A stretch of 64,000 bases of DNA, taken from the NCBI RefSeq assembly GCF_041821085.1, contig NZ_JBGUAZ010000005.1:1-64000 (forward strand), read 5' to 3'. Below the pieces are notes generated by a model that was given only the letters and a program-made list of their open reading frames with translations, did not search any database and was not told the origin of the DNA. Position 1 is the first letter of the stretch; each line of letters opens with the position of its first letter. This DNA comes from Natrinema sp. HArc-T2 (GTDB lineage Archaea; Halobacteriota; Halobacteria; Halobacteriales; Natrialbaceae). Both the position numbers and the translations under genes were made by a program. Below are positions 26,066-57,442 of this stretch, piece by piece.

Positions 26066-26146
26066 ATGGCACGCCATTCGCCATCTGACGAGGATAGAGG
26101 AAGTCGGGGCAACCCGGCTGGGCGTGAAATTCTCCGACGAACGTAA
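26066..26146 (+). CDS. Possible upstream ORF / leader peptide (26 aa)
   Basis: This frame starts 4 bases after the expected transcription start and encodes 26 residues, MARHSPSDEDRGS at the start and REILRRT at the end. It terminates at 26144-26146, 20 bases inside the earliest LeuA/CimA start (26124), in another frame. It has only one Ile and one Leu codon, so ribosome stalling on the pathway product is not obvious. It may be an artefact, or an alternative N terminus if a frameshift exists. Confidence 0.35.
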   Translation: MARHSPSDEDRGSRGNPAGREILRRT

Positions 26147-42938: not shown

Positions 42939-43616
42939 GTGCCTCGAGCGAAGCTCGCGATCTCGATCCCCGAAACGATGTGGATCAACGACGTGTCCCA
43001 GTCCCATCCCCAGACGACGTTCAAGGTCGTCTCGGCACTGGCCGGCGAACGGACGGGAATCGCGCTCATCGAGTTACAGATGGCGGATCCGCTCCCGGTG
43101 ATCACCGACATGGCCGATCGAGCGGACGTCGTCGACTTCGATCTCCTCTGGAAAGGGGAGTCGAGTGCGTTGCTCCACGTCGAAACGACCAGTCCCTCGA
43201 TCCTCCAGCCGGTCTTACAGTCCGGCATCCCCATCGAGATGCCGTTTACCGTCAGAAACGGCGAGGCGACGTGGACGGTAACCGCAGCATCGTCCCGGTT
43301 TTCCGAGTTCGGTCGATTGCTCGACGAGCTCGGCATCGAGTACACCCTCGAGTACGTTCACGAGATCGGCCACACCCGTGCCGACGACATCTTGACCGAG
43401 CGACAACGGGAAGTACTGCTGGCGGCGCTCGAGCGCGGCTACTACGCGACGCCGCGTGAAGCGACGCTCACCGACGTCGCGAGCGACCTCGACATCTCGA
43501 AAGCGACGTGTAGCGAAACCCTTCACCGTGCGGAGGGGAGCGTTATCAGGTGGTTCGCCGACGAACACACCGGCGACGCTCGAGCGCAGCTGGCGACAGA
43601 CACTGACACGAGGTGA
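42939..43616 (+). CDS. Bat-type helix-turn-helix regulator
   Basis: A 225-residue HTH_10 protein. The first 150 residues form a sensory domain; LTERQREVLLAALERGYYAT (about 151-170) and VASDLDISKATCSETLHRAE form the DNA-binding region. A GTG start at 42939 is used. It is divergent from the oxidase-like membrane gene with the iterons between, so it probably controls both itself and that gene. Candidates for the ligand include oxygen, nitrite or NO, by analogy with Bat-like regulators of anaerobic respiration. Confidence 0.88.
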   Translation: MPRAKLAISIPETMWINDVSQSHPQTTFKVVSALAGERTGIALIELQMADPLPVITDMADRADVVDFDLLWKGESSALLHVETTSPSILQPVLQSGIPIEMPFTVRNGEATWTVTAASSRFSEFGRLLDELGIEYTLEYVHEIGHTRADDILTERQREVLLAALERGYYATPREATLTDVASDLDISKATCSETLHRAEGSVIRWFADEHTGDARAQLATDTDTR

Positions 43617-45734: not shown

Positions 45735-45769
45735 GCTCAGACGGACCCACTGACAGGGGTCCGTATCAC
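45735..45769. repeat. Short hairpin related to family 2 (copy I), between convergent genes
   Basis: A perfect 8-bp stem ACGGACCC (45741-45748) / GGGTCCGT (45757-45764) with flanks CTCAG and ATCAC like the ends of family 2. It contains the DsbA-like gene stop (45766-45768) and lies 114 bases after the multicopper oxidase stop. It could act as a two-way terminator. Confidence 0.5.
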
Positions 45770-46491
45770 TCGTTTTGAACCCGCTCGATCGCCTCGTCGA
45801 ACCGCGTTTTCGGCTGGGCACCGACGAGCGTTTCGGTCGCGCCAGCCTCGCGATTGACGATAGCGAACGTCGGCGTTCCCGAAACTCCGAGTGATCGCGC
45901 TTTCTCGGCATCCGCGTTGACCTGGGTTTCGAGCGTCGATCGACGCTCGTCGAGACAGGTCTCGAGCGCATCGGCATCGACGCCGTCGACCGAACGGGTG
46001 TACTCGAGGAGGTTCTCGCTCGAGGCCCATCCCGAATTCTTCTCGCCTTGTTCCTCGAAGATCGCCGTGTGCCAGTTCCAGTACGCCGACGGCTCGGCGT
46101 CGCGGACCTGGTCCCACACGCACTTGCTGGCGACCGCGGCGGTCATCGAGTCCTCGCCGAAGTACGGCAGCGAAATGAACACGATGCGAACGTCGCCGGA
46201 CTCGACGTATTCGGGCACGAGCTCGGGAAGCGTCTCCCGTTCGAACTGCTCACAGAACGGACACTGGAAGTCCGTCCAGTAGTAGATCTGGATCGGGGCG
46301 TCGGGCGAGCCCATGATCGGCTTCCCGGTGAGGTCGATGCCGAACGCCGACGTCTCGTCGCTCGAGTGAAACGACGAGACCTGTTCCTGCGTCGCGGTGT
46401 CACCGGAGCGGGTGAGAAAATAGGCACCCCCGCCGAGAGCGCCCACGAGACCGGTCACGAGAGCGCGACGGGACGGCTGATCGAGCGACAT
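45766..46491 (-). CDS. DsbA-like thiol-disulfide oxidoreductase, membrane-anchored or Tat-exported
   Basis: A 241-residue thioredoxin-fold protein. An N-terminal PSRRALVTGLVGALGGGAYF (about 6-25) is a Tat-like signal or anchor. The redox motif is DFQCPFCEQFE (Cys pair CPFC, about residues 77-80) and the cis-Pro is in GVSGTPTF. The size and helical insert fit DsbA/DsbG-type enzymes working outside the cytoplasmic membrane. A palindromic GATTTGCTG box lies about 50 bases upstream, shared with the neighbouring regulon. The stop is inside a repeat hairpin. Confidence 0.9.
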   Translation of the reverse strand: MSLDQPSRRALVTGLVGALGGGAYFLTRSGDTATQEQVSSFHSSDETSAFGIDLTGKPIMGSPDAPIQIYYWTDFQCPFCEQFERETLPELVPEYVESGDVRIVFISLPYFGEDSMTAAVASKCVWDQVRDAEPSAYWNWHTAIFEEQGEKNSGWASSENLLEYTRSVDGVDADALETCLDERRSTLETQVNADAEKARSLGVSGTPTFAIVNREAGATETLVGAQPKTRFDEAIERVQNE

Positions 46492-46538
46492 GGATTGTAC
46501 TCGCGTCCGTTCTCACCGTCGAACCCTAATGGAATCGG

Positions 46539-46561
46539 CGATTTGCTGAGCCAGCAAATCG
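46539..46561. promoter_or_regulatory. Palindromic box 1, GATTTGCTG-AGC-CAGCAAATC
   Basis: A perfect 10-bp inverted repeat (9-bp core 46540-46548 and 46552-46560, plus a C/G pair) with a 3-base spacer. It lies about 48 bases before the DsbA-like start (46491), and about 8 bases from the TATA-like CATTAGG (46526-46532). Identical half-sites occur at 48591 and 53955. Confidence 0.85.
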
Positions 46562-46641
46562 GGCGTCGTCCGCGGTCGCGATCAGAGCCACGGCGACGGC
46601 GGACGGGCGATGGTGGTGGCCCTCGAGTCGGCGCTAACGGG

Positions 46642-48534
46642 TTACGAGTCGACGATCTCGAGCGTCCAATCGCCGTCTGCCTCGACGTTGAGCCAGACGG
46701 GGCCGCCGGCCTTGTACGACCGCGAGTTCGAGAACTCACCGGTACGATGGACGAGGACCTCACGACTGCCGTCTGCACCGTAGCCGTCGACGATGAACGT
46801 CCCGTCGCCGTCGTGTGTCGCGACGACTCTGACGTCACGATCCGTCCACAGCGGGCCGACGAACGCCGCGCCCGTGCCGGACGCCTCGACGGGGAGGTCC
46901 TCGAGGTCGTCCGCATCGACCGCGGGCTGAGAGAGGTCGATCGACCACGCGCCGTCGGCGTCGACCTCGAGCCTGTAGGTGTCGTCGTCGACGGCCATGA
47001 TCGATTCGCCGGTCGCGTTCCCGGACGTGGTCAGCAGATTCTCGTTCCGTCCGAGACTGCCGGGTTTCGTCACGTCGACAGCGATCTCTCCACCGTCGTG
47101 GGAGACGGTCGCGACGACGACGCCGTCGTCGAGCTCGAACGTCGGCGACTCGCCCGAGCCGGTTCCCTCGAACGTGTGAGACTGACCCGCCTTGAGAACG
47201 GTCCCGCTCGGTCGCGTTCCGACTGGCGGTTCGTCGCTGTCGAGGTCCAGCGTCCCGTCGACGAGATCGGAGGGTGTGACGACGTCGAGGCCGCGGTGTT
47301 CGATGTGATCGAGCAACAGGCCGAAGTCGTCGAGCGACATCCTGTTCTCGTTGACGCCTACGTCTTCCGCGTCGACGAGTCGCGGAATCCGCAACACGGT
47401 GAGCAGATCGTACTGGTCGGAGATGTTGAGGTGGCGGCGAACGCCGGTGTGAAGCGCGGGCCCCCAGATGAACGGAATCATGTGCATCTCGGTCGGTGGC
47501 ACGCTGGTCGTCCCGGCGCTGTAGAGGAACGTCGACTCGTGGACGTCCCTGGCGACGTCGTAGGTCGTCGAATCCATTCGCCCGTCGGGAACGAACAGGT
47601 GGCGCGCCCCGTCCTCGAAGCCGTCGCTCGCGAGCGCGTCGCGAGCGGTCTCGAGGACCGATCGCTGCCGGTCTGCGGGCTGGTCCGGAAGGGGCGTCGA
47701 CACTGACGGGAGCGAACAGATGTCCCACCCGCGCTCGCTGAGGTCGCGGAGTTCATCGAGACCCATGCGACCGCTGTCACCGATCTGGTCGGGGGTGACC
47801 GGAACCGCCGCGTTCCAGTCGCGCTCCGCGAGCATCTCGGCGGCGATCTCGTAGTGCGAGTCGTGGCCGCCGTGGAACGCGAGGACCACCGCGCCGTTGC
47901 TTGCCGATTCGGTTCGCCGAAGGTCGTCGACCAGCAGTTTGCTCGGCCCACCCTCGGGCCCGTCCGCGATGATGTTGATACCGGTGACGTTCGAGAGATC
48001 CGGATCGTCACCGGGTTTTTGCTGATAGCCACAGTCCATTCGGAACCAGCCGTCGTACCCATCCGGCACCACGCGAATGCTCGAGAGGCGCTCGCGCCGC
48101 GTCGGTGCGAGGAACTCGACGATGATACGATTGGCGGACTCCGGCTTGACCGCCACCGAGACGTCCCAGCCTTCGAGATCGAGTCCGTCCGGGAAGCGGA
48201 GCTCCATGCCGGCCGTTCCCTCGTCGCTCTCGACGACCGCCGCCTGTGATCCGAGCCGCGCCTCGTCGGGGTCGGCCGAGAGTTCGCCGGTTCGGGCGGT
48301 CCACTCCTCGAGCGTCTCGAAGTCGGAGAGGACCTCGCCGGTCTCGATGGCAGGCCAGTTCGTGGGACCGGTGGCCATGTCGCCCTTGACGGAACTAGTT
48401 TCGTCCCCGCCGGCGACGCCGTCTGGAAGTACATCCGCACAGCCCGCGAGCGTCGTCGAGACAGCGCCAGCACCGAGTGAGGCCAGTAGTCGTCGGCGAG
48501 ACGAGCCGTCGTCCGAATCGCGTTCGGATACCAT
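46642..48534 (-). CDS. NodB-like polysaccharide-deacetylase-fold lipoprotein
   Basis: A 630-residue exported lipoprotein. Tat motif SRRRLLASLGAGAVSTTL with lipobox LAGC (about residues 12-32), so it is likely lipid-anchored outside. A jelly-roll/carbohydrate-binding-like domain (about 60-210) is followed by a NodB fold (about 210-410) in which the first catalytic motif, normally TFDDG, reads LAFHGGHDSHYE. The C-terminal part (about 430-630) contains repeats of beta-sandwich type. Its deacetylase activity is doubtful because the Asp pair is missing. A palindromic box lies just upstream of its start. Confidence 0.8.
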   Translation of the reverse strand: MVSERDSDDGSSRRRLLASLGAGAVSTTLAGCADVLPDGVAGGDETSSVKGDMATGPTNWPAIETGEVLSDFETLEEWTARTGELSADPDEARLGSQAAVVESDEGTAGMELRFPDGLDLEGWDVSVAVKPESANRIIVEFLAPTRRERLSSIRVVPDGYDGWFRMDCGYQQKPGDDPDLSNVTGINIIADGPEGGPSKLLVDDLRRTESASNGAVVLAFHGGHDSHYEIAAEMLAERDWNAAVPVTPDQIGDSGRMGLDELRDLSERGWDICSLPSVSTPLPDQPADRQRSVLETARDALASDGFEDGARHLFVPDGRMDSTTYDVARDVHESTFLYSAGTTSVPPTEMHMIPFIWGPALHTGVRRHLNISDQYDLLTVLRIPRLVDAEDVGVNENRMSLDDFGLLLDHIEHRGLDVVTPSDLVDGTLDLDSDEPPVGTRPSGTVLKAGQSHTFEGTGSGESPTFELDDGVVVATVSHDGGEIAVDVTKPGSLGRNENLLTTSGNATGESIMAVDDDTYRLEVDADGAWSIDLSQPAVDADDLEDLPVEASGTGAAFVGPLWTDRDVRVVATHDGDGTFIVDGYGADGSREVLVHRTGEFSNSRSYKAGGPVWLNVEADGDWTLEIVDS

Positions 48535-48590
48535 TACCCAGGCGGTGCCGCGTCGGGACCGTCATTATTGTGTGGATAAACGGGGACAGA

Positions 48591-48611
48591 GATTTGCTGA
48601 CTCAGCAAATC
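48591..48611. promoter_or_regulatory. Palindromic box 2, GATTTGCTG-ACT-CAGCAAATC
   Basis: A perfect 9-bp inverted repeat, same half-sites as boxes 1 and 3. It lies between the divergent NodB-like gene (start 48534) and the Cys-motif membrane gene (start 48653). On the minus strand TTTATCC (48574-48580) is 10 bases beyond it; on the plus strand CATTTCAA (48621-48628) is 9 bases beyond it and 28 bases before ATG 48653. Confidence 0.85.
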
Positions 48612-48652
48612 GGAGTCGGACATTTCAACCATCACTGCATCGGTTCATCTAA

Positions 48653-49201
48653 ATGTTACCGCGCGATTCGATCAGGGGATACCTGACGAACCTCTCCGAA
48701 GCGGTCTCGTACCCCTTCGAGACGTGGCGGGGAACGATCGGGCTGGTACTCGTGACGGTCGCGACGTACGTGTTGTTGATCCTGAGCACGATGCCCGAAT
48801 TCTCGCTTCAGATGCTCGGCGACGGCCTCCACTGGTTCGAGTACGTCGTCGTCTCGCTTACGGAGACGGTCTACCGGACCGACGGCTGGACCGGGCTCGG
48901 GGTTATCGTCCTCTATGCCCTGCTCTCGGGCGTCGCAGTCGTCAACGCCGTCGCGCAACTGCGGCTCGTCGGCCTCTCGAGTCTCACCGATCTCTCCGCC
49001 GTGGTGCCGGGACTCCTCGCGTCGGGCTGTGCGAGTTGCGGCGCTGGGCTTCTCGGCTTTCTCGGATTTGCCGGCGGGTTGGCAGCGCTCCCGTACGACG
49101 GCGCACTGCTTCGCGTCGGCGGCCTCGCGCTGTTGCTGTTCTTCCTGGGACGGGCAGGCCATCCCGAACGATGTACGTTCACCACGGAGGCGACGCAATG
49201 A
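48653..49201 (+). CDS. Membrane protein with a GCASCG motif
   Basis: A 182-residue protein with about five transmembrane helices. A Cys pair in PGLLASGCASCGAGLLGFLG (about 123-142) lies at the start of a helix. There is also a C-terminal Cys (RCTF). I recognise no named family, but the GCxxC-in-membrane pattern is like that of VKOR/CcdA-type thiol carriers, which is analogy only. It is followed by a second Cys-motif membrane gene whose start overlaps its stop (ATGA, 49198-49201). Driven from box 2. Confidence 0.8.
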   Translation: MLPRDSIRGYLTNLSEAVSYPFETWRGTIGLVLVTVATYVLLILSTMPEFSLQMLGDGLHWFEYVVVSLTETVYRTDGWTGLGVIVLYALLSGVAVVNAVAQLRLVGLSSLTDLSAVVPGLLASGCASCGAGLLGFLGFAGGLAALPYDGALLRVGGLALLLFFLGRAGHPERCTFTTEATQ

Positions 49202-49680
49202 CGGGACGCCGGTTCGTCCGATCGATCCGCTCGGATCGGCGAGCGATCGCCTGGGGGATCGCAGCCGGGATCGGCGTCTTCGCGCTGTTCGGACTCGTCA
49301 CCGGCCACATCCCGAACCCGCTGTACGTCCGGATGGTCCCGCGGACGCCAATCGATTACCTGTTTCTGACGCTGACCGCGCTACTGGCGGGCGTCTACAC
49401 CGCACAGCGGGTGGCGACCGACGTTCCCCAGTCTGGACTCGAGGGCGAAGACGGGGACACGAGCAGCGAGGATCGGTGGGCGATGGGTGGGCTGGTCGGT
49501 GGCTTTCTGGCCGTCGGCTGTCCGATCTGTAACGTCTTCCTGCTCGCGCTGTTCAGTTCGTCCGCGCTCATGACCTACTTCGATCCGCTTCGGCCGCTGC
49601 TCGGCGCCGTCTCCGTGGCGCTGCTGGCGGGGCTGATCTACACCCGACACAAACGCACGTGTCCGACCTGCGCCACGTGA
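49198..49680 (+). CDS. Membrane protein with GCPIC and CPTC motifs
   Basis: A 160-residue protein with four predicted helices. The Cys pair lies in GGFLAVGCPICNVFLLALF (about 100-118); the C terminus ends TCPTCAT with another CxxC. An acidic loop (about 78-93, EGEDGDTSSED) separates helices two and three. Its start overlaps the previous stop by 4 bases, so the two form a coupled pair. Together they could carry disulfides or metal across the membrane; the function is not established. Confidence 0.8.
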   Translation: MTGRRFVRSIRSDRRAIAWGIAAGIGVFALFGLVTGHIPNPLYVRMVPRTPIDYLFLTLTALLAGVYTAQRVATDVPQSGLEGEDGDTSSEDRWAMGGLVGGFLAVGCPICNVFLLALFSSSALMTYFDPLRPLLGAVSVALLAGLIYTRHKRTCPTCAT

Positions 49681-49690
49681 TCGCCGGCGC

Positions 49691-50392
49691 TCACTCGGAC
49701 TCCTTCCAGTCGCCGGCTTCGGTCTCGCGAAACTCCTCTTTCGCCTCGCGCTCGCGTGGCCAGAACGCGAGCACGAGAACGCCGGCGTAAAACGTTCCGA
49801 CGAGCCCTACGACGACGGCGCCAGGGACGGACGCGATGGCCGCGGCATCGGGAAGGCTCTCGCCCGGCGCGAAGGCGGTGACGCGAAAGAGCCACGCGAG
49901 ACAGAGCACGGTCAACAGTGCGAAGTAGATGCGCCGCAGCCGGTTCGCGATCGCCTCGAGTAGCGTGATCTTCAGCGTCGGTCGCCGGTAGTCGTCGCCG
50001 AGTTCGGTTCGCCAGTCGCCGTGTTCGCCGCGTTGGGACGGGTCCAGCGTCGTCGCGAGGAAGTTCTGCTGGAGGAGTCGCACGCGAGCCCGGTAGACGT
50101 CGTAGTCACGATACCGCCGCGCCTCGATCAGGAGGAACATACCGATGGCAAGTACGCCAATGAGGACGATGTAGTGAGGGTTGTCGGGACTCGAGAACGC
50201 CCACGTAAGAATCGCGGCCATCACCGTGACGCTCCACGTCGTCGTCTGGTCGAGCCGCGAACGCCAGGTCGTCTCCCGGGAGATTTCACCGCGATAGGCG
50301 TGGCCGAGAACCGTGTTCAACTCCGAGAGATCCTGACCGGCCTCTCGTCCCGGTTCGGCCTGCGTGGACTCGTCGTCGGTGGTATCGGTCAT
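49691..50392 (-). CDS. DUF2270 membrane protein
   Basis: A 233-residue protein with four helices (about 52-70, 72-90, 165-185 and 195-215). The cytoplasmic sequence LNTVLGHAYRGEISRETTWR and RRYRDYDVYRARVRLLQQNF match the DUF2270 family. No function known. Convergent with the Cys-motif pair, 10 bases apart, so it is probably not in the same unit. Confidence 0.88.
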   Translation of the reverse strand: MTDTTDDESTQAEPGREAGQDLSELNTVLGHAYRGEISRETTWRSRLDQTTTWSVTVMAAILTWAFSSPDNPHYIVLIGVLAIGMFLLIEARRYRDYDVYRARVRLLQQNFLATTLDPSQRGEHGDWRTELGDDYRRPTLKITLLEAIANRLRRIYFALLTVLCLAWLFRVTAFAPGESLPDAAAIASVPGAVVVGLVGTFYAGVLVLAFWPREREAKEEFRETEAGDWKESE

Positions 50393-50504
50393 CAGTCTCT
50401 CACTCGTTCAACGGCCGACGAGAAATAACGCCGGTCGGACGCGGCCACACACAGATATCGAGCGAACCTAGCACGGACAACCCGAACGATGACCACGGTT
50501 TGGC

Positions 50505-50526
50505 CACTCCAATATTGTATGGAGTG
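50505..50526. promoter_or_regulatory. Inverted repeat across a TATA-like sequence
   Basis: CACTCCA (50505-50511) and TGGAGTG (50520-50526) form a perfect 7-bp inverted repeat around ATATTGTA. It lies 40-60 bases before the thioredoxin-like start (50566) and 113 bases before the DUF2270 start (50392). It could be an operator covering the promoter of either gene. Confidence 0.45.
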
Positions 50527-50565
50527 TACAAAACACTCAAGTGCTGGTGACCCGTTGTTTCGGTA

Positions 50566-50937
50566 ATGACTGAAACAGCGCCTTCGGATCCGATCGGCGA
50601 TGGAAGCGGCCCCCAGAAACCCGTCCAGCTGGACAGTGCTGCCGACTACGACGAGTTGCTCGCGGCACACGACCTCGTGTTGCTCGAGTTCGTCACGTCC
50701 GGCTGTGGGATCTGTGCGTCGATGGAACCGGTGCTCGGCGCGGTCGCTCGCAGCGCGCCGGGTGCCGTCGCGACGGTAAACGCCGGCCTCGTTCCGGAGG
50801 TCGCCGACGAATACAGTATTCGGAGCGTGCCGACGCTCGTCGTCCTGCGAGACGGCGAGGAGGTCGCGCGTCTCGACGATGGGTTCCAGAGCGCGGAGAC
50901 GGTCGTCGAGCTGCTCGAGACGCACGCGGCGGAGTAA
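50566..50937 (+). CDS. Thioredoxin-fold protein (CGIC active site)
   Basis: A 123-residue cytoplasmic thioredoxin. The active site LLEFVTSGCGICASMEPVLG (about 39-58) has CGIC in place of CGPC, and the cis-Pro is in IRSVPTLVVL. Acidic N-terminal extension of about 25 residues. It lies among envelope redox genes, so it may be the cytoplasmic partner of the Cys-motif membrane pair; this is inference. Confidence 0.9.
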   Translation: MTETAPSDPIGDGSGPQKPVQLDSAADYDELLAAHDLVLLEFVTSGCGICASMEPVLGAVARSAPGAVATVNAGLVPEVADEYSIRSVPTLVVLRDGEEVARLDDGFQSAETVVELLETHAAE

Positions 50938-51145
50938 ACGGAGTTATGTTGGCTTTCGTTGTTCTCATCTAGCACAATACTGGGGGCGTCATAGAATGGC
51001 TCGCACACCCACCCTGTGACTACCCATCAACGGTAAGTACAGGCGGAGTAGATAACGGAGCGACGAGCGATCTATCGGAGAGATTGCAGAAACTGCGTGC
51101 TGAATATAGAGAATCCACGAAAAACCCCTCACCTACATCAAATGT
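50938..51145. other. AT-richer intergenic region
   Basis: No gene seen. The base composition falls here and stays low through the next gene. The text CTGAATATAGAG (about 51100) is of a type seen near haloarchaeal IS elements, but no element could be defined. Confidence 0.35.
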
Positions 51146-51859
51146 CTAGTCTCCGAATCTCGATTTCACATAAGTGAAAACGAGATAGATTGTGGCGAGT
51201 ATCACGCCAGGTGCCCCTAGAAGAAATGGAGCAAACTCAAAATTCAGTAGCATCGAGATGTACGGCCACATGAGAAGGACTGATCCTAGTGCTGTGAAAG
51301 CAAATACTGCTCGGGGATGAGACTCTCTTCGAGTGAACGTTATCCACAGGAGAAGGAGACTATATATGATAAAGGATAATATTGTCAGCCCAGCTGCGAA
51401 AGCTAGTCCCATTGCACTTCCATAGAATGTTGTCTGCTGTGCAGCGTAATACTCTCCGTTGTATTCTAGGGTACTGGTTCTGACTGTTTCGTGTGGGTGC
51501 CGATCTGGTGTCCCTGGAAACTCGGGTTCCTCTCTATATGTATCGCAAACCAGCATATAATCCGCACAGATTCTGATATCCTGCGACTGCCAGCCATTCG
51601 GGTCCCACTCGGATGTCCTTCGTGGCTGCTTGAGTAAGTCCTGAAACACTTGTTGTGCTTCAGGAGACAACTCATCCACAGAAGTAGCGTTATCGGGGTT
51701 AGTTGGCATCTCCGCGTATGCGTCTGTAGATTCGTGTGCGATTCTATATTCTCTGTCCTCTGGCTCGTAGGGTTGATGTGTTGCACTAGAGCCTAACAGA
51801 CTTACAGGCAGAAGGAACGCGACAATAATACCGACAATTACGATGGTACGATACTTCAC
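51146..51859 (-). CDS. AT-rich hypothetical membrane protein
   Basis: A 237-residue protein. Signal/anchor helix at 5-24 (IVIVGIIVAFLLPVSLLG), an outside domain of about 125 residues with one Cys pair (RICADYMLVC), and three C-terminal transmembrane helices (about 148-172, 183-203, 208-230). The start is GTG at 51859 with TATA-like TTATAAAA about 24 bases upstream. Codon use is far more AT-rich than all neighbours, so recent gain is likely. No recognised family. Confidence 0.75.
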   Translation of the reverse strand: MKYRTIVIVGIIVAFLLPVSLLGSSATHQPYEPEDREYRIAHESTDAYAEMPTNPDNATSVDELSPEAQQVFQDLLKQPRRTSEWDPNGWQSQDIRICADYMLVCDTYREEPEFPGTPDRHPHETVRTSTLEYNGEYYAAQQTTFYGSAMGLAFAAGLTILSFIIYSLLLLWITFTRRESHPRAVFAFTALGSVLLMWPYISMLLNFEFAPFLLGAPGVILATIYLVFTYVKSRFGD

Positions 51860-52133
51860 CCCAGTGTAGTGACACGTGTTTTATAAGTGCTTTCTGGTAT
51901 TGTAGTTTCCTGTATCCGACACCGCTCTGCTAACATCACCGATAGCTGATGGAAGTACCAGCGTTGGATTCGCAGATGTAGTGAACGGATAGTTCAACCC
52001 GATTGGGACGAAAGAAATGACATGCTAATCGTTCGACGACACCCACCAACACTGGCTGTAGCGTCGACTCGAGTCAGGGCCGACGCGATCAGCGCAGTTT
52101 AATCCGTCCGGTCAGCGACACACTCGCTCGAGA

Positions 52134-53894
52134 TTACCTCGTGACCGCGAGCCGTTCGTCAGGTCGCTTTTCGGACGAAACACCTTTTTCGACGACGAGG
52201 TCCTCGAGGACGAGGACGTCCAGCCCCATCCCGTAGAAGTCCTTGATCGCCTGCGTTGGCGTCCGGACGATCGGCTCGGCATGGTCGTTGAACGAGGTGT
52301 TGAGGACCACCGGCACGCCAGTGATGTCGGCGAACTCCGAGATGAGTCGGTGATAGCGCGGGTGCTGGTCCTCGCGGACGGTCTGAGGCCGCGTCGAGTC
52401 GTCGGCCGGGTGCAGGACGGCCTCGAGCTCGTCGGTCTTTGCTGGGCGGATGTCGTCGGCATCGATCATGAACGGTGCCGGCCTGCCGTCAACGAGATAC
52501 TCCTCGGCGACCGACTCGAGCATCGACGGCGCGAACGGGCGCCACTCTTCGCGGTGTTTGACGAAGCGGTTAACCCGATCGCGGGACGCGGCAGTCCGTG
52601 GATCGGCGAGGATACTTCTGGCGCCGAGCGCCCGGGGTCCCATCTCCATCCGGCCCTGGAACCAGCCGACGAGGTCGCCGTCCGCGAGCCGTTCGGCGAC
52701 GTACCGCTCGAGGTCATCCGGTTCCGCGTACTCGATTTTGTTTGTCTCGAGGGTCGCCCGGATCTCGTTGGTCTCGTACTCGGGGCCGAGGTAGACGTCG
52801 GTCTGGCGGTCGATGTCCGCCGGCCGCTGTCGCGACCAGCCCGCTCCGAGGGCGAGGCCGGCGTCGTGAGCGACGGGTTGAACGAAGACGTCGTCGACGA
52901 CCGGCGATTCTCGGACGCGTTGGTTCAGTTTGCAGTTGAGCGCGACCCCGCCTGCGAGCGCGACGTTGGCGGTGCCGAAGCGCTCGACCGCCGACTCCGC
53001 GATGTCGACGACCGTCTCCTCGAGCAGTTTCTGAGCCGTGTACGCGAGGTCTTTCTCCCACTGGTCGAACGACTCGGGTGACTCCTTTCGGGATCGACCG
53101 AAGGCGTTCTCGAGCGTCTCGACGCCGTGGCCGGTCCCCCATCGTTTCGTCAGGTCGGTGACGTCGTAGTCGACGCCCGTGTCGATCAGACTCCGGAGGG
53201 CGGATTCGATCTCGGGGTTGTCGTTTCCGTACGGTGCGAGTCCCATCACCTTCCCTTCGCCGTTGAACATGCGATAGCCGAGGTACTCCGTCACGGCTGC
53301 GAAGAAGAGACCGAGGCTGTTCGGGTGTTCGTACGTGCGCACGCGCTGTAACCCGGTGCTGTCGGCGTACCAGACGACCGTCGCGTCGTACTCGCCCTTT
53401 GCGTCGACGGTAAGGACGATCCCCTCGTCGAAGCCCGAGGGGTGGAACGCACTCGCGGCGTGACAGCGGTGATGGGGGATCGTTTCGATCGGTGGCAGCG
53501 GCGTTCCGAACGACTCGAGACGGGATTCGATCTGTCGCGTCGGCATGAATCGGCTCCGAATCTGGGTGACGAGCGTTTGTTCCAGTGCGGAGAGTTTCCG
53601 TCCGAGCCCGGGCACTCGAATCGCGTCGGTCAGGTAGTGGGAGGCGATCTCACTGCGGAGTGGCGGATCGTAGGGGAGCAGGATGCGATCGAGATCCGTT
53701 ATCACCAGCTCGCGATGGTCGAGGCAGGCTTGAATCGCACGGTCGGGGAACGTCTCAGTGGCGTGTTTGTCCCGCGTGTATCGTTCCTCTTCGACGCCGA
53801 ACACGGGCGTCCCGTCTTCGAAGAGGACGGCGCTCGGATCGTGTTGGCCGTACAGTCCGATCGCGGGTTTAAATGCAAGGAGGTAATCCGTCAT
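52134..53894 (-). CDS. NodU/CmcH-type carbamoyltransferase
   Basis: A 586-residue enzyme that transfers carbamoyl from carbamoyl phosphate, via carbamoyl-AMP, to sugar or antibiotic hydroxyls. The N-terminal ASKHA-like domain has GLYGQHDPSAVLFEDG (about 13-28), HHRCHAASAF (about 141-150) and LTVDAKGEYDATVV. The C-terminal Sua5/YrdC-like domain has QGRMEMGPRALGARSILADP (about 415-434) and REEWRPFAPSMLE. Full length. A palindromic box lies about 60 bases upstream. With the NodB-like lipoprotein it suggests surface-glycan modification. Confidence 0.93.
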   Translation of the reverse strand: MTDYLLAFKPAIGLYGQHDPSAVLFEDGTPVFGVEEERYTRDKHATETFPDRAIQACLDHRELVITDLDRILLPYDPPLRSEIASHYLTDAIRVPGLGRKLSALEQTLVTQIRSRFMPTRQIESRLESFGTPLPPIETIPHHRCHAASAFHPSGFDEGIVLTVDAKGEYDATVVWYADSTGLQRVRTYEHPNSLGLFFAAVTEYLGYRMFNGEGKVMGLAPYGNDNPEIESALRSLIDTGVDYDVTDLTKRWGTGHGVETLENAFGRSRKESPESFDQWEKDLAYTAQKLLEETVVDIAESAVERFGTANVALAGGVALNCKLNQRVRESPVVDDVFVQPVAHDAGLALGAGWSRQRPADIDRQTDVYLGPEYETNEIRATLETNKIEYAEPDDLERYVAERLADGDLVGWFQGRMEMGPRALGARSILADPRTAASRDRVNRFVKHREEWRPFAPSMLESVAEEYLVDGRPAPFMIDADDIRPAKTDELEAVLHPADDSTRPQTVREDQHPRYHRLISEFADITGVPVVLNTSFNDHAEPIVRTPTQAIKDFYGMGLDVLVLEDLVVEKGVSSEKRPDERLAVTR

Positions 53895-53953
53895 GGTTCC
53901 GTGATTGTGACGCTATCCTACATCGACACCGAGTGGCTTCAAGACAGCCGCGG

Positions 53954-53976
53954 CGATTTGCTGAACCAGCAAATCG
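53954..53976. promoter_or_regulatory. Palindromic box 3, GATTTGCTG-AAC-CAGCAAATC
   Basis: A perfect 10-bp inverted repeat including flanking C/G (core 53955-53963 and 53967-53975). It lies between the carbamoyltransferase (start 53894) and the winged-helix gene (start 54003 or 54012). On the plus strand it ends 4 bases before the TATA-like CTATTTGG (53980-53987). Confidence 0.85.
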
Positions 53977-54002
53977 TGGCCTATTTGGCATAGAACGTCG
54001 GG

Positions 54003-54371
54003 GTGTGTCCTGTGCAGCACGGTGGCTCCCCGAACTCGTCGGAGATATTCCAGATCCTCGCGGACGAATACGCGCGGAAGATACTCGTCGCGGCCGATCA
54101 AGGTCCGATGACCGCGAAGGCCCTAAGCGAGGAGTGTGATGCCTCTCTCACGACGGTCTATCGACGCGTCTCGACGCTTCAGGACCTCGAGCTCATCGAA
54201 GAACGAAACACAGTCGACTCGAACGGAGCCCACCGAAGCGAGTTCGAAACGGCGCTCGAGGGGCTCCGCGTCGATCTCACCGATGGCGAACTGTCGCTGA
54301 CGCTCGAGACGCGCGATGAGCTCGCTGACAATTTTACGTCGCTCTGGGACGATCTCCGGGGTGACGATTGA
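54003..54371 (+). CDS. Small winged-helix regulator, candidate regulator of the GATTTGCTG box
   Basis: A 122-residue ArsR-like winged-helix protein. EIFQILADEYARKILVAADQ, then ALSEECDASLTTVYRRVSTL (recognition helix about 40-58) and LIEERNTVDSNGAHRSEFET as wing. No sensory domain or Cys pair is present, so the ligand is unclear; the last 30 residues are a helix. Start GTG 54003 is given; GTG 54012 is 28 bases after the TATA-like element and equally likely. Box 3 lies upstream, so autoregulation is plausible. It overlaps the next gene by one base. Confidence 0.85.
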   Translation: MCPVQHGGSPNSSEIFQILADEYARKILVAADQGPMTAKALSEECDASLTTVYRRVSTLQDLELIEERNTVDSNGAHRSEFETALEGLRVDLTDGELSLTLETRDELADNFTSLWDDLRGDD

Positions 54372-54634
54372 TGGAGGCCTCGTTCGTCATCGCCAAACTG
54401 ATTACGCTCGTGTTGAGCCTCGTCGTCGCGTATCTGGCGTATCACGGCTACCGGCGAAACGGCCAAACGCCGATGCTATACGTCGCCGCAGGCTTCGTGT
54501 TTATCGGTGCGGGGGCGATCTGTGAGGGCCTGATCTACCTCGTGTTTCGGACGACGATCGCCTCCGCCGCCCTCGTACAGGCGGCCATCGTCTCGAGCGG
54601 GATGCTGCTCATCCTCGCGTCGCTGACGAAGTAG
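54371..54634 (+). CDS. Small membrane protein (DUF7521-like)
   Basis: An 87-residue protein with three helices (about 5-25, 35-55 and 65-83). The start ATG overlaps the regulator stop (TGATG, 54369-54373). Small membrane proteins coupled to a winged-helix gene are frequent in haloarchaea; the pair may be a membrane-sensing regulatory unit in which this protein is the sensor. That is inference; no motif proves it. Confidence 0.78.
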   Translation: MEASFVIAKLITLVLSLVVAYLAYHGYRRNGQTPMLYVAAGFVFIGAGAICEGLIYLVFRTTIASAALVQAAIVSSGMLLILASLTK

Positions 54635-54640
54635 GGGCCG

Positions 54641-55564
54641 CTAGAAGAACAGCGCCGGCACGGAGTTCCGGAAGATGTTGAGCGCGATGACGAACAGGAG
54701 TCCGACGACGAACCAGTTGAACCGCTGTTCGTCGATCTCGAGGCGCCGGAGGTAGGTTCCGACCAGCAGGCCGACGATGGTGACGACCGCGATCACCGAG
54801 CCGAGCCAGAGCCGGTAGGTCGTCATGAGATCGGTAAACAAGGACATCTGGATGATGCGGACGGTGAAGATCGTTCCCAGCACCATCGAGAGACCGCCGA
54901 TGTAGCGTTCAGTGTCACGCTCGAAGGTATGGAAGTACGCCGGCAGCAGCGGGCCGAGGTTCGCGATCGCGAGCAGAAAGCCCTCGAGGAAGCCGGCGGA
55001 GCCGAGCGCGATCGGGTGGTGGGCCTCCTCGACCGTGACGAAGTTCTGGACGACCTGAAAGGCGACGTAGCCGAGGATGACGAGGCCGATGACGAAAGGC
55101 ACGATCGGCCCGGCACTGAACGTTGCCAGCGCCGCGACGCCGATGATGCTCCCGACGACGGCAAGCGAAAGCAGCGGCCACTCCTCGCGAACGAATTCTC
55201 GTCCGGTATCCGTTTCACCGATCTGGAACATGTTGAGCATCCAGGGCGGGATCGCGAGGACGACGACGGCGAACGTCGGGTCGATAACCGACGCGAAGAC
55301 CGGCGTCGTGATCAGCGAGTAGCCAAAGCCGATCATCCCTTTGACGACACCGGCGACGATCGCGACTGCGACGAACAGGGCAAGTAATTCGACCGAGAGG
55401 TCGGACTGAACGCCTTTGTCGATGTGCTCGAGGCCCGGGAAGAAGACGATCGACGCGACGATGACAGCGAGCGTCGCGGCGACCATCATCACCTCCCGAT
55501 ACCGAAACGCGGAGACGTTCGTGAGAAACTGTTCGACGTCGCTGGTAGGTTCTGGTGTGCTCAT
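54641..55564 (-). CDS. TauE/SafE family membrane exporter
   Basis: A 307-residue protein with eight or so helices. The family pattern is seen in VVKGMIGFGYSLITTPVFA (about 79-97) and ALGSAGFLEGFLLAIANLGP (about 184-203). Members export sulfite, sulfoacetate or other organosulfur anions. The ATG at 55564 is chosen over 55612. It is convergent with the membrane gene above, 6 bases apart. The substrate is unknown. Confidence 0.88.
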   Translation of the reverse strand: MSTPEPTSDVEQFLTNVSAFRYREVMMVAATLAVIVASIVFFPGLEHIDKGVQSDLSVELLALFVAVAIVAGVVKGMIGFGYSLITTPVFASVIDPTFAVVVLAIPPWMLNMFQIGETDTGREFVREEWPLLSLAVVGSIIGVAALATFSAGPIVPFVIGLVILGYVAFQVVQNFVTVEEAHHPIALGSAGFLEGFLLAIANLGPLLPAYFHTFERDTERYIGGLSMVLGTIFTVRIIQMSLFTDLMTTYRLWLGSVIAVVTIVGLLVGTYLRRLEIDEQRFNWFVVGLLFVIALNIFRNSVPALFF

Positions 55565-55929
55565 AGCGAGAGGCTGGCGAAGACGATGCAGTCGCCTTAC
55601 GACCCGATACACACGGGAACAGTATCCCCCTGTGCGATTCGGCGAGATCTACGGAGTTCCGAGTCGACGAAAGCACACCGAAATGGCGGCTCACAGCCGC
55701 TTAAACACAGTTACACGCGATTGAGCGGAAACGGACCGTCATAGCTCGAGGAGAGATTTTCCGCTAGCGGTCGAAACGGGGGAGAAGAGACGAGATAGCG
55801 GCTCGAGAAAGATCAGCGAGTGGCCCCAAGCCAGCACCGCAGTGTCGAATCCGAATACGAGCCTCGGTACGACGCGTCATCGCCGCCCGATGTGGTACTC
55901 GATCGGACCCGCGGAACCACGCCGCGGGA
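55565..55929. other. Intergenic region, no gene seen
   Basis: About 365 bases upstream of the TauE/SafE gene and downstream of the TrmB-like gene. No coding sequence, repeat or clear hairpin could be supported. Confidence 0.5.
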
Positions 55930-56340
55930 CTAGCTTTCGATCTGGGTCTGGGCCACGTCGGCCTGTGCCTGCTCGTATTTGTTCTCGAACTCCTGGATGA
56001 GCTGGCCCATCTTCGCGTACCAGTCGTTCAACATCCGCTGCATGCTGTCAGCGATCTTCGACGGGTCGGTCGGGAAGTACACGTGGTAGTACCCGCCCTG
56101 ATCGTAGTTGACCTGGTCTTTCTGGATGAATCCCGTCTGCAGCAGCCGCTGGACGGCCCGGTAGGCGGTCGAACGCTCGCGGTCGACGGCGTCGGCGATT
56201 TCGTCGACGGTCATCGGCTCATCGGCAGCGACGAGCGCCCGGAAGCACTCCTTATCGAGTTGCTTGAGGCCGTGGAAGCACTCGAGGAGTCCTTCACACT
56301 GCATATCTTGCTGGAGTTGTTCGGACATCGAATCCGGCAT
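55930..56340 (-). CDS. TrmB-like winged-helix regulator
   Basis: A 136-residue regulator. LKQLDKECFRALVAADEPMT and VDEIADAVDRERSTAYRAVQ form the winged-helix DNA-binding domain, followed by an acidic coiled-coil tail (WYAKMGQLIQEFENKYEQAQ). Related proteins regulate sulfur or metabolic genes in haloarchaea. The ATG at 56340 is preferred to 56349. TATA-like GTTAAAAG (about 56369-56376) lies upstream. It ends a block with the second TauE/SafE gene, suggesting local control. Confidence 0.85.
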   Translation of the reverse strand: MPDSMSEQLQQDMQCEGLLECFHGLKQLDKECFRALVAADEPMTVDEIADAVDRERSTAYRAVQRLLQTGFIQKDQVNYDQGGYYHVYFPTDPSKIADSMQRMLNDWYAKMGQLIQEFENKYEQAQADVAQTQIES

Positions 56341-56410
56341 TGGAATCACACCTAGATAGACGCCGCGCCGTTAAAAGACTTGTGTAGAGATCGTACAATG
56401 CTGCGTCAAC

Positions 56411-57442
56411 CTAGTCAGCGGTCGACGGCGGCGCGCTCGCGTCCTCGCGGAGCACGGTGACGCCGCTGTAGACGACGGCCCCGCTGACGAGCAGCGCGGC
56501 CCCGAGGATGATCGCCAGGCTCACCACGTCGAGGACGGGCATCTCGAGGAGCCCGCCGATCTCTCGCACCGCGACGGCGATCGCGCCGAGCAACAGCATA
56601 ACCCCGAAGTAGACCTTGATGTCCTCTTCGTTGACGAGGTTGGTCGCGGCTGCGCCGACGCGGGCACCGAGTGCGCTGCCAGCCAGCAGCGGGACGACGA
56701 TGCCGAGGTTGACCGCTCCGGACTGGGCGTAGAGGAAGCTCCCGATCCCGCCCGAGAAGACGATCTCGAACAGGTCGGTCCCGACTGCGACCGGGACGGG
56801 CACGCCGATCAGGTAGAACAGCGCGGGCATGCGGATGAAGCCGCCACCGACGCCGAGGAAGCCCGATAGCACCCCCGTCGCGAACGCCACAGCCAGCACC
56901 ATCCACAGCGAGACTTTGAAGCCACCGCGGATCGAGATCATCGGCGGCACGTTGTACGACTGGATTTTCTGGGCGATCTCGGGGATCTCCTCGTCCTCGA
57001 GATCGGCGTCCTCGTCGACGTCGTGGTCGATGCCGCCACCGCCGCCTTTCATCGCTTCGTAGGTGACGAAAACACCGATCCCACCCAGCAGCAGGACGTA
57101 TGCGACACTGACCACCGAACCGGCCAGCCCAATGTGCTGGAGGTACTCGAGGCCGATCTTCCCAACCTCGATGCCGGCAGTGGTGCCGGCGATCATCAAC
57201 ACGCCGAGTTTGTAGTCGACCTGCCCGAGGTCACGGTGTTTGAGCGTCGCGATCACGGAGGTCCCGAAGACAAAGGCCAGACCGGACCCGACCGCGACGT
57301 TCGCGTCGTAGCCCATCACTAGCAGTGCGGGCGTCACGAGGAACGACCCGCCCATCCCGAAGAATCCGAACAGGATCCCGATGAGCAGACCGAACCCGAC
57401 GAACATCACGATCAGCGCCAGGCTCATTCCAAGTATTTCCAT
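56411..57442 (-). CDS. TauE/SafE family membrane exporter
   Basis: A 343-residue protein with eight to nine helices and an acidic loop (about 136-165, VDEDADLEDEEIPEIAQKIQ). Signature GFFGMGGSFLVTPALLVMG (about 26-44) and GFLGVGGGFIRMPALFYL (about 195-212) show the two halves. Exports sulfite or related anions in other organisms. Its start follows the small DUF7512-like gene by 2 bases. With TrmB, YeeE/YedE and TusA genes it forms a sulfur-handling cluster. Confidence 0.9.
   Translation of the reverse strand: MEILGMSLALIVMFVGFGLLIGILFGFFGMGGSFLVTPALLVMGYDANVAVGSGLAFVFGTSVIATLKHRDLGQVDYKLGVLMIAGTTAGIEVGKIGLEYLQHIGLAGSVVSVAYVLLLGGIGVFVTYEAMKGGGGGIDHDVDEDADLEDEEIPEIAQKIQSYNVPPMISIRGGFKVSLWMVLAVAFATGVLSGFLGVGGGFIRMPALFYLIGVPVPVAVGTDLFEIVFSGGIGSFLYAQSGAVNLGIVVPLLAGSALGARVGAAATNLVNEEDIKVYFGVMLLLGAIAVAVREIGGLLEMPVLDVVSLAIILGAALLVSGAVVYSGVTVLREDASAPPSTAD

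Follow-up and report, generated by a model that had tools for sequence, protein, structure and literature searches.

A thrice-repeated palindrome as the probable operator of a winged-helix regulator and its small local regulon in Natrinema sp. HArc-T2

RESULTS

Three copies of one palindrome lie between the genes of a compact locus

The window, i.e. the whole stretch of 64,000 nucleotides that was analysed, contains a group of genes for envelope-associated proteins, a carbamoyltransferase and a putative transcription factor, and a 21-bp palindrome occurs three times between them:

45766-46491, minus strand: DsbA-like exported thioredoxin-fold protein (Thioredoxin_4, by Pfam)
46526-46531, minus strand: TATA-like CATTAG of the dsbA-like gene
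46540-46560, no strand: predicted operator box 1, GATTTGCTG-AGC-CAGCAAATC, 48 bp from box edge to the dsbA-like ATG at 46491
46642-48534, minus strand: NodB-like lipoprotein resembling polysaccharide deacetylases; its Pfam match falls short of the cut-off
48576-48580, minus strand: TATA-like TTTAT of the NodB-like gene
48591-48611, no strand: predicted operator box 2, GATTTGCTG-ACT-CAGCAAATC, in the gap shared by two divergent genes, 56 bp from the start of the NodB-like gene and 41 bp from that of MemA
48622-48627, plus strand: TATA-like ATTTCA of MemA
48653-49201, plus strand: MemA, membrane protein in which a CASCG motif is invariant; matches neither Pfam nor NCBIfam, nor any PDB fold
49171-49680, plus strand: MemB, membrane protein downstream of MemA, with an invariant CPxCN and a C-terminal CxxC
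52134-53894, minus strand: NodU/CmcH-type carbamoyltransferase
53939-53945, minus strand: weak TATA-like TCTTGAA region of the carbamoyltransferase gene
53955-53975, no strand: predicted operator box 3, GATTTGCTG-AAC-CAGCAAATC, in the gap shared by two divergent genes, 60 bp from the start of the carbamoyltransferase gene and 36 bp from that of the winged-helix gene
53982-53987, plus strand: TATA-like TATTTG of the putative regulator gene
54012-54371, plus strand: putative winged-helix regulator (HTH_20), 119 aa, recognition helix at residues 46-58
54371-54634, plus strand: DUF7521 small membrane protein, its start overlapping the regulator stop codon

MemA and MemB (48653-49680) are strongly conserved and neither matches Pfam or NCBIfam; a fold search with the MemA model (pLDDT 71) found no PDB match, the best E-value being 2.4. 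Shared ancestry of the two proteins is not claimed (hhalign probability 9.7 in a profile comparison). Elsewhere in the window, Rfam places a leuA-Halobacteria RNA at 26083-26135 (73 bits).

A preliminary description of this DNA had reported three intergenic copies of GATTTGCTG-N3-CAGCAAATC with identical 9-bp half-sites, different spacers and TATA-like elements alongside, and had judged their recurrence to be far beyond chance. All of this was confirmed: given the base composition, 2e-5 exact matches would be expected in a genome, and shuffles of the window yielded a mean of 0.01 palindromes and never three, so that these copy counts lead us to reject a chance origin of the boxes. The genome scan proposed in that description returned exactly three exact copies in the 3.73-Mb genome, all within 7.5 kb and without scatter into coding regions. 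Neither the window nor the genome holds a further copy at up to three mismatches, a loose setting at which a reversed control pattern had two genome matches. The companion scan of related genomes was equally favourable: a box with at most one mismatch is found in 54 of the 392 genomes of the order and the reversed control in none, with about 0.4 sites expected across the whole set. Box-bearing genomes often carry two or three copies inside ~10 kb, and 108 of 112 boxes (up to two mismatches) are intergenic, compared with an intergenic share of 28% of the DNA. One genome (G075) has a single isolated one-mismatch box, approximately as expected by chance.

While the spacers do differ, they are not the free N3 of the preliminary pattern, since AGC, ACT and AAC, like the spacers of nearly all boxes elsewhere, obey a purine-N-pyrimidine (R-N-Y) rule. 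The outer flanks favour a C...G pair, which extends the site to cGATTTGCTG-RNY-CAGCAAATCg. Because the boxes were gathered by similarity, conservation inside the 18 half-site bases is in part built in, which does not apply to the preferences seen in spacer and flanks. The flanks are otherwise poorly conserved between sites. A literature search for GATTTGCTG together with haloarchaea found no paper.

The box keeps a near-constant distance to TATA-like elements

The distance from box edge to gene start is characteristic of each target class: 41 bp for MemA (25 of 36), mostly 36 bp for the putative regulator, 57-60 bp for the carbamoyltransferase (16 of 17), ~43-50 bp for those dsbA-like genes whose start call falls on the upstream ATG, and, in a second group of loci (see below), 84-88 bp for a cupredoxin gene. 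Leader lengths thus differ between classes, yet in all of them a TATA-like element begins ~7-12 bp away from the box edge; overall, the box is placed ~10-14 bp upstream of such an element. On the sides that face a gene, AT content peaks at 11-14 bp from the box. On sequence grounds, this near-constant distance means that the box is anchored to the TATA-like element, immediately upstream of the predicted BRE. The box overlaps neither TATA nor start site in any target class, and most of the TATA-like elements of the targets are weak (TATTTG, ATTTCA, GTTACG).

The same genes carry the box across genomes

The comparative set consisted of 60 stretches, nearly all of 20 kb, in which genes were called by codon usage and proteins clustered. 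Boxes recur there before the dsbA-like, MemA(-MemB), carbamoyltransferase, NodB-like and winged-helix/DUF7521 genes, in support of the regulon postulated earlier. The genes listed as fronted by the boxes were correct, save that box 1 fronts the dsbA-like gene only, since on the opposite side it faces the NodB-like gene's 3' end.

Since some loci had been chosen by their box, we ran a gene-anchored test on loci holding the winged-helix gene. A box with up to three mismatches was found upstream of 24 of 29 dsbA-like, 22 of 30 MemA, 14 of 17 carbamoyltransferase and 27 of 37 winged-helix genes. These four main target classes carry the box in 73-83% of cases, versus 2 of 562 other genes; some of the loci were also first met through the box, so selection bias is reduced in these figures, not removed. 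No box precedes any of the 33 thioredoxin or 24 MemB genes, and the NodB-like class scores 3 of 10, which in part reflects start calls a long way from the box. The thioredoxin gene of the window (50566-50937) belongs to a class that is conserved in the neighbourhood and never has a box.

The same box also occurs with a second regulator clade, whose members come mostly from other families; there it separates a cupredoxin gene from a winged-helix/DUF7521 pair, and in some of these loci (L171/L177, L169/L178) two tandem DUF7521 genes follow the regulator. Taken over all loci, the targets are DsbA-like proteins, Cys-motif membrane proteins, cupredoxin and sometimes SCO1, and the neighbours include multicopper oxidases, CcdA-like and TlpA-like proteins, DUF326 Cys-rich proteins and rhodanese/metallo-beta-lactamase enzymes. 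This gene content suggests envelope thiol/disulfide or copper stress as the signal. In many genomes the regulon is accompanied by conserved TauE-like permeases and a TrmB-like regulator, which in the window lie at 54641-57427 (the TrmB-like gene at 55930-56304).

The winged-helix gene co-occurs with the box and carries its own

The preliminary description had named the winged-helix protein beside box 3 as the regulator and placed its start at 54003. The assignment gains support from co-occurrence and from the gene's own box; the start moves to GTG 54012, because most orthologues align from about residue 4 and because the box-to-start distance then equals the conserved 36 bp, at which an exact or degenerate box is found in 24 of 27 named-genome loci. 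From this GTG the mRNA is probably leaderless. By regulator sequence the nearest named relatives are Natrinema species. The protein exceeds curated cut-offs for HTH_20 and HTH_IclR only (HTH_20, PF12840, 31.1 bits with a gathering cut-off of 27), and its model (mean pLDDT 82) shows a winged helix with the recognition helix at 46-58 and a C-terminal helix.

Across 84 genomes of the family, 30 hold both the box and an orthologue (E below 1e-34), six the orthologue only, one the box only and 47 neither (Fisher 1e-15, relatedness not corrected). The predicted operator at the regulator's own gene, a feature of autoregulated operator-regulator pairs, is conserved in 27 of 37 orthologues. Seven orthologues (L070, L087, L088, L094, L106, L120, L123) lack a box of their own in a 110-bp range, and in most of these loci a box precedes MemA or dsbA; the regulator may then be reached by read-through. 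Conversely, in three genomes boxes are present and a close orthologue was not found. The contig of one (G255, the box-only genome) ends soon after the box; another (G203) has a distant orthologue only and a decayed MemA without the Cys motif; the third (G381) retains fused remnants of the carbamoyltransferase and NodB-like genes. An intact box also stands over a decayed MemA (L107:10131-10529), in which CASC has become RASR, where the genome lacks a close orthologue of the regulator. Judged from sequence comparison, the adjacent winged-helix protein is likely the regulator of the boxes.

Paralogous winged-helix/DUF7521 pairs have palindromes of their own

The protein encoded behind the regulator matches DUF7521 (PF24365) with 66.3 bits, the gathering cut-off being 27; a literature search for DUF7521 or haloarchaea found no paper naming the domain. 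In the same and in related genomes, paralogous winged-helix/DUF7521 pairs have different inverted repeats at the same position: TTTTCTS-N3-CAGAAAA, ACTGCAG-N3-CTGCAGT and CACRGTTTC-N7-GAAACTGTG. In three upstream regions (L125, L126, L127) the pair's own palindrome lies just upstream of TATA. No clear palindrome was seen at more distant DUF7521 neighbours, and the pattern therefore covers only part of the DUF7521 set.

Residue 47 of the recognition helix tracks the type of site. Where it is T, S or A, 42 of 51 loci have a GCTG box (the GATTTGCTG group); where it is P, none of 28 does. The tree requires at least three changes at this residue, and two box-bearing clades each have a relative (L109 and L139) that carries P together with a CAGAAAA-type site. 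Two exceptions, a T with TATTTTCTGATTTAGAATATC (L209) and an A without a box (L179), weaken a strict one-residue specificity code and make residue 47 a tendency. We tentatively propose that these pairs may form a haloarchaeal family of two-gene modules, each joining a one-domain winged-helix factor to an envelope-sensing DUF7521 protein that controls it, and each autoregulated through its own palindrome at a constant position by the BRE, with a specificity set largely at the N-terminal end of the recognition helix, by residue 47 (T/S/A versus P).

DISCUSSION

Very probably, the palindrome serves as operator for the winged-helix protein whose gene lies at 54012-54371. We infer that this protein would bind as a homodimer, one subunit on each 9-bp half-site, with the box centre ~47-50 bp upstream of the predicted transcription start and immediately upstream of the BRE. 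The regulon is small and local: from three operators it would govern five promoters, namely those of the regulator-DUF7521 operon, the carbamoyltransferase, MemA-MemB, the NodB-like and the dsbA-like genes. The regulator would probably act by aiding TFB/TBP at weak promoters, and DUF7521 probably modulates it in response to the state of the envelope; to go by the target genes, the signal is possibly thiol/disulfide or copper stress outside the membrane.

The favoured sign, an activator rather than a repressor, is argued by analogy from a box that lies upstream of BRE/TATA and from the weakness of most target TATA-like elements. Autoregulation, however, is typical of ArsR-like repressors, and a winged-helix repressor could sit beside the BRE and block TFB until envelope stress, perhaps through DUF7521, releases it. 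We regard this as possible, if somewhat doubtful: a protein footprint of more than 21 bp could cover the BRE, and the nearest structural relative is the heat-shock regulator Phr, but the boxes stay clear of TATA and start site, and TATA-like elements this weak fit repression poorly. In one published account (PMC4158304), sites upstream of BRE/TATA mark promoters activated by TrmB-type regulators. The position of the box is nevertheless not decisive, because deletion of CsmR of Haloferax raises target expression even though its motif is upstream of BRE/TATA (PMC13286277).

A different transcription factor might instead bind the box and the winged-helix gene be merely one of its targets, as the three genomes with boxes and no close orthologue might indicate; the TrmB-like gene (55930-56304) and a Bat-like gene (42978-43616) are nearby in some genomes. 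We consider this unlikely, as the winged-helix gene is the only box-adjacent regulator in nearly all loci, including those of the second clade, whose neighbours otherwise differ, and the paralogues bear their own palindromes at the same place. Least probable by far, to the point that we give it hardly any weight, is a palindrome that is no operator at all. As RNA, its perfect 9-bp stem and 3-nt loop could form a hairpin, yet the box lies upstream of TATA on both sides of divergent promoters and so is probably outside the target mRNAs; this position, the variable flanks and the lack of other copies in the genome lead us to reject an RNA hairpin or a mobile repeat, and they speak against a recombination site as well.

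An autoregulated archaeal winged-helix regulon is of a known kind; what is partly new is the unstudied membrane partner together with the family-wide operator layout. The closest solved fold to the regulator model is Phr of Pyrococcus furiosus (PDB 2p4w; TM-score 0.70 over 97 columns), likewise an archaeal winged-helix regulator. Phr is, however, longer (198 residues) and only ~22% identical, and the NCBIfam Phr model gives 16.1 bits against a cut-off of 320. Moreover, Phr acts at the start site according to PMC4158304, whereas the box described here is upstream of TATA. The ArsR/SmtB metalloregulators (CzrA, SmtB) share the small winged-helix fold, and HTH_metalloreg is the best NCBIfam model, albeit sub-threshold (24.6 versus 55 bits), but in 35 sequences the only invariant cysteine is C42, and the Cys pair of their recognition region is absent. 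TrmB-family proteins, among them OxsR and Halobacterium TrmB, have palindromic sites, and whether these activate or repress depends on where they stand with respect to BRE/TATA (PMC4158304); OxsR is described as a single winged-helix redox regulator (PMC9426492). Their motif differs, the regulator here lacks an effector domain, and it scores 18.1 bits with TrmB (PF01978; gathering cut-off 25.6). CsmR of Haloferax volcanii resembles the present case in its semi-palindromic motif next to BRE/TATA (PMC13286277), but it belongs to the Lrp/AsnC family, has motility targets and recognises TATCA-N4-TGATA.

Haloarchaeal regulators with a known operator and target set are few; for the present one, operator and targets can be predicted at base-pair resolution. 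The regulon ties an exported DsbA-like protein and two uncharacterised Cys-motif membrane families into one regulated unit. Should the family-wide pattern hold, a winged-helix/DUF7521 pair with its own palindrome at a constant promoter position, the regulons of many haloarchaeal regulators that are still uncharacterised would become readable, and the paralogues would form a natural series in which to follow shifts in operator specificity.
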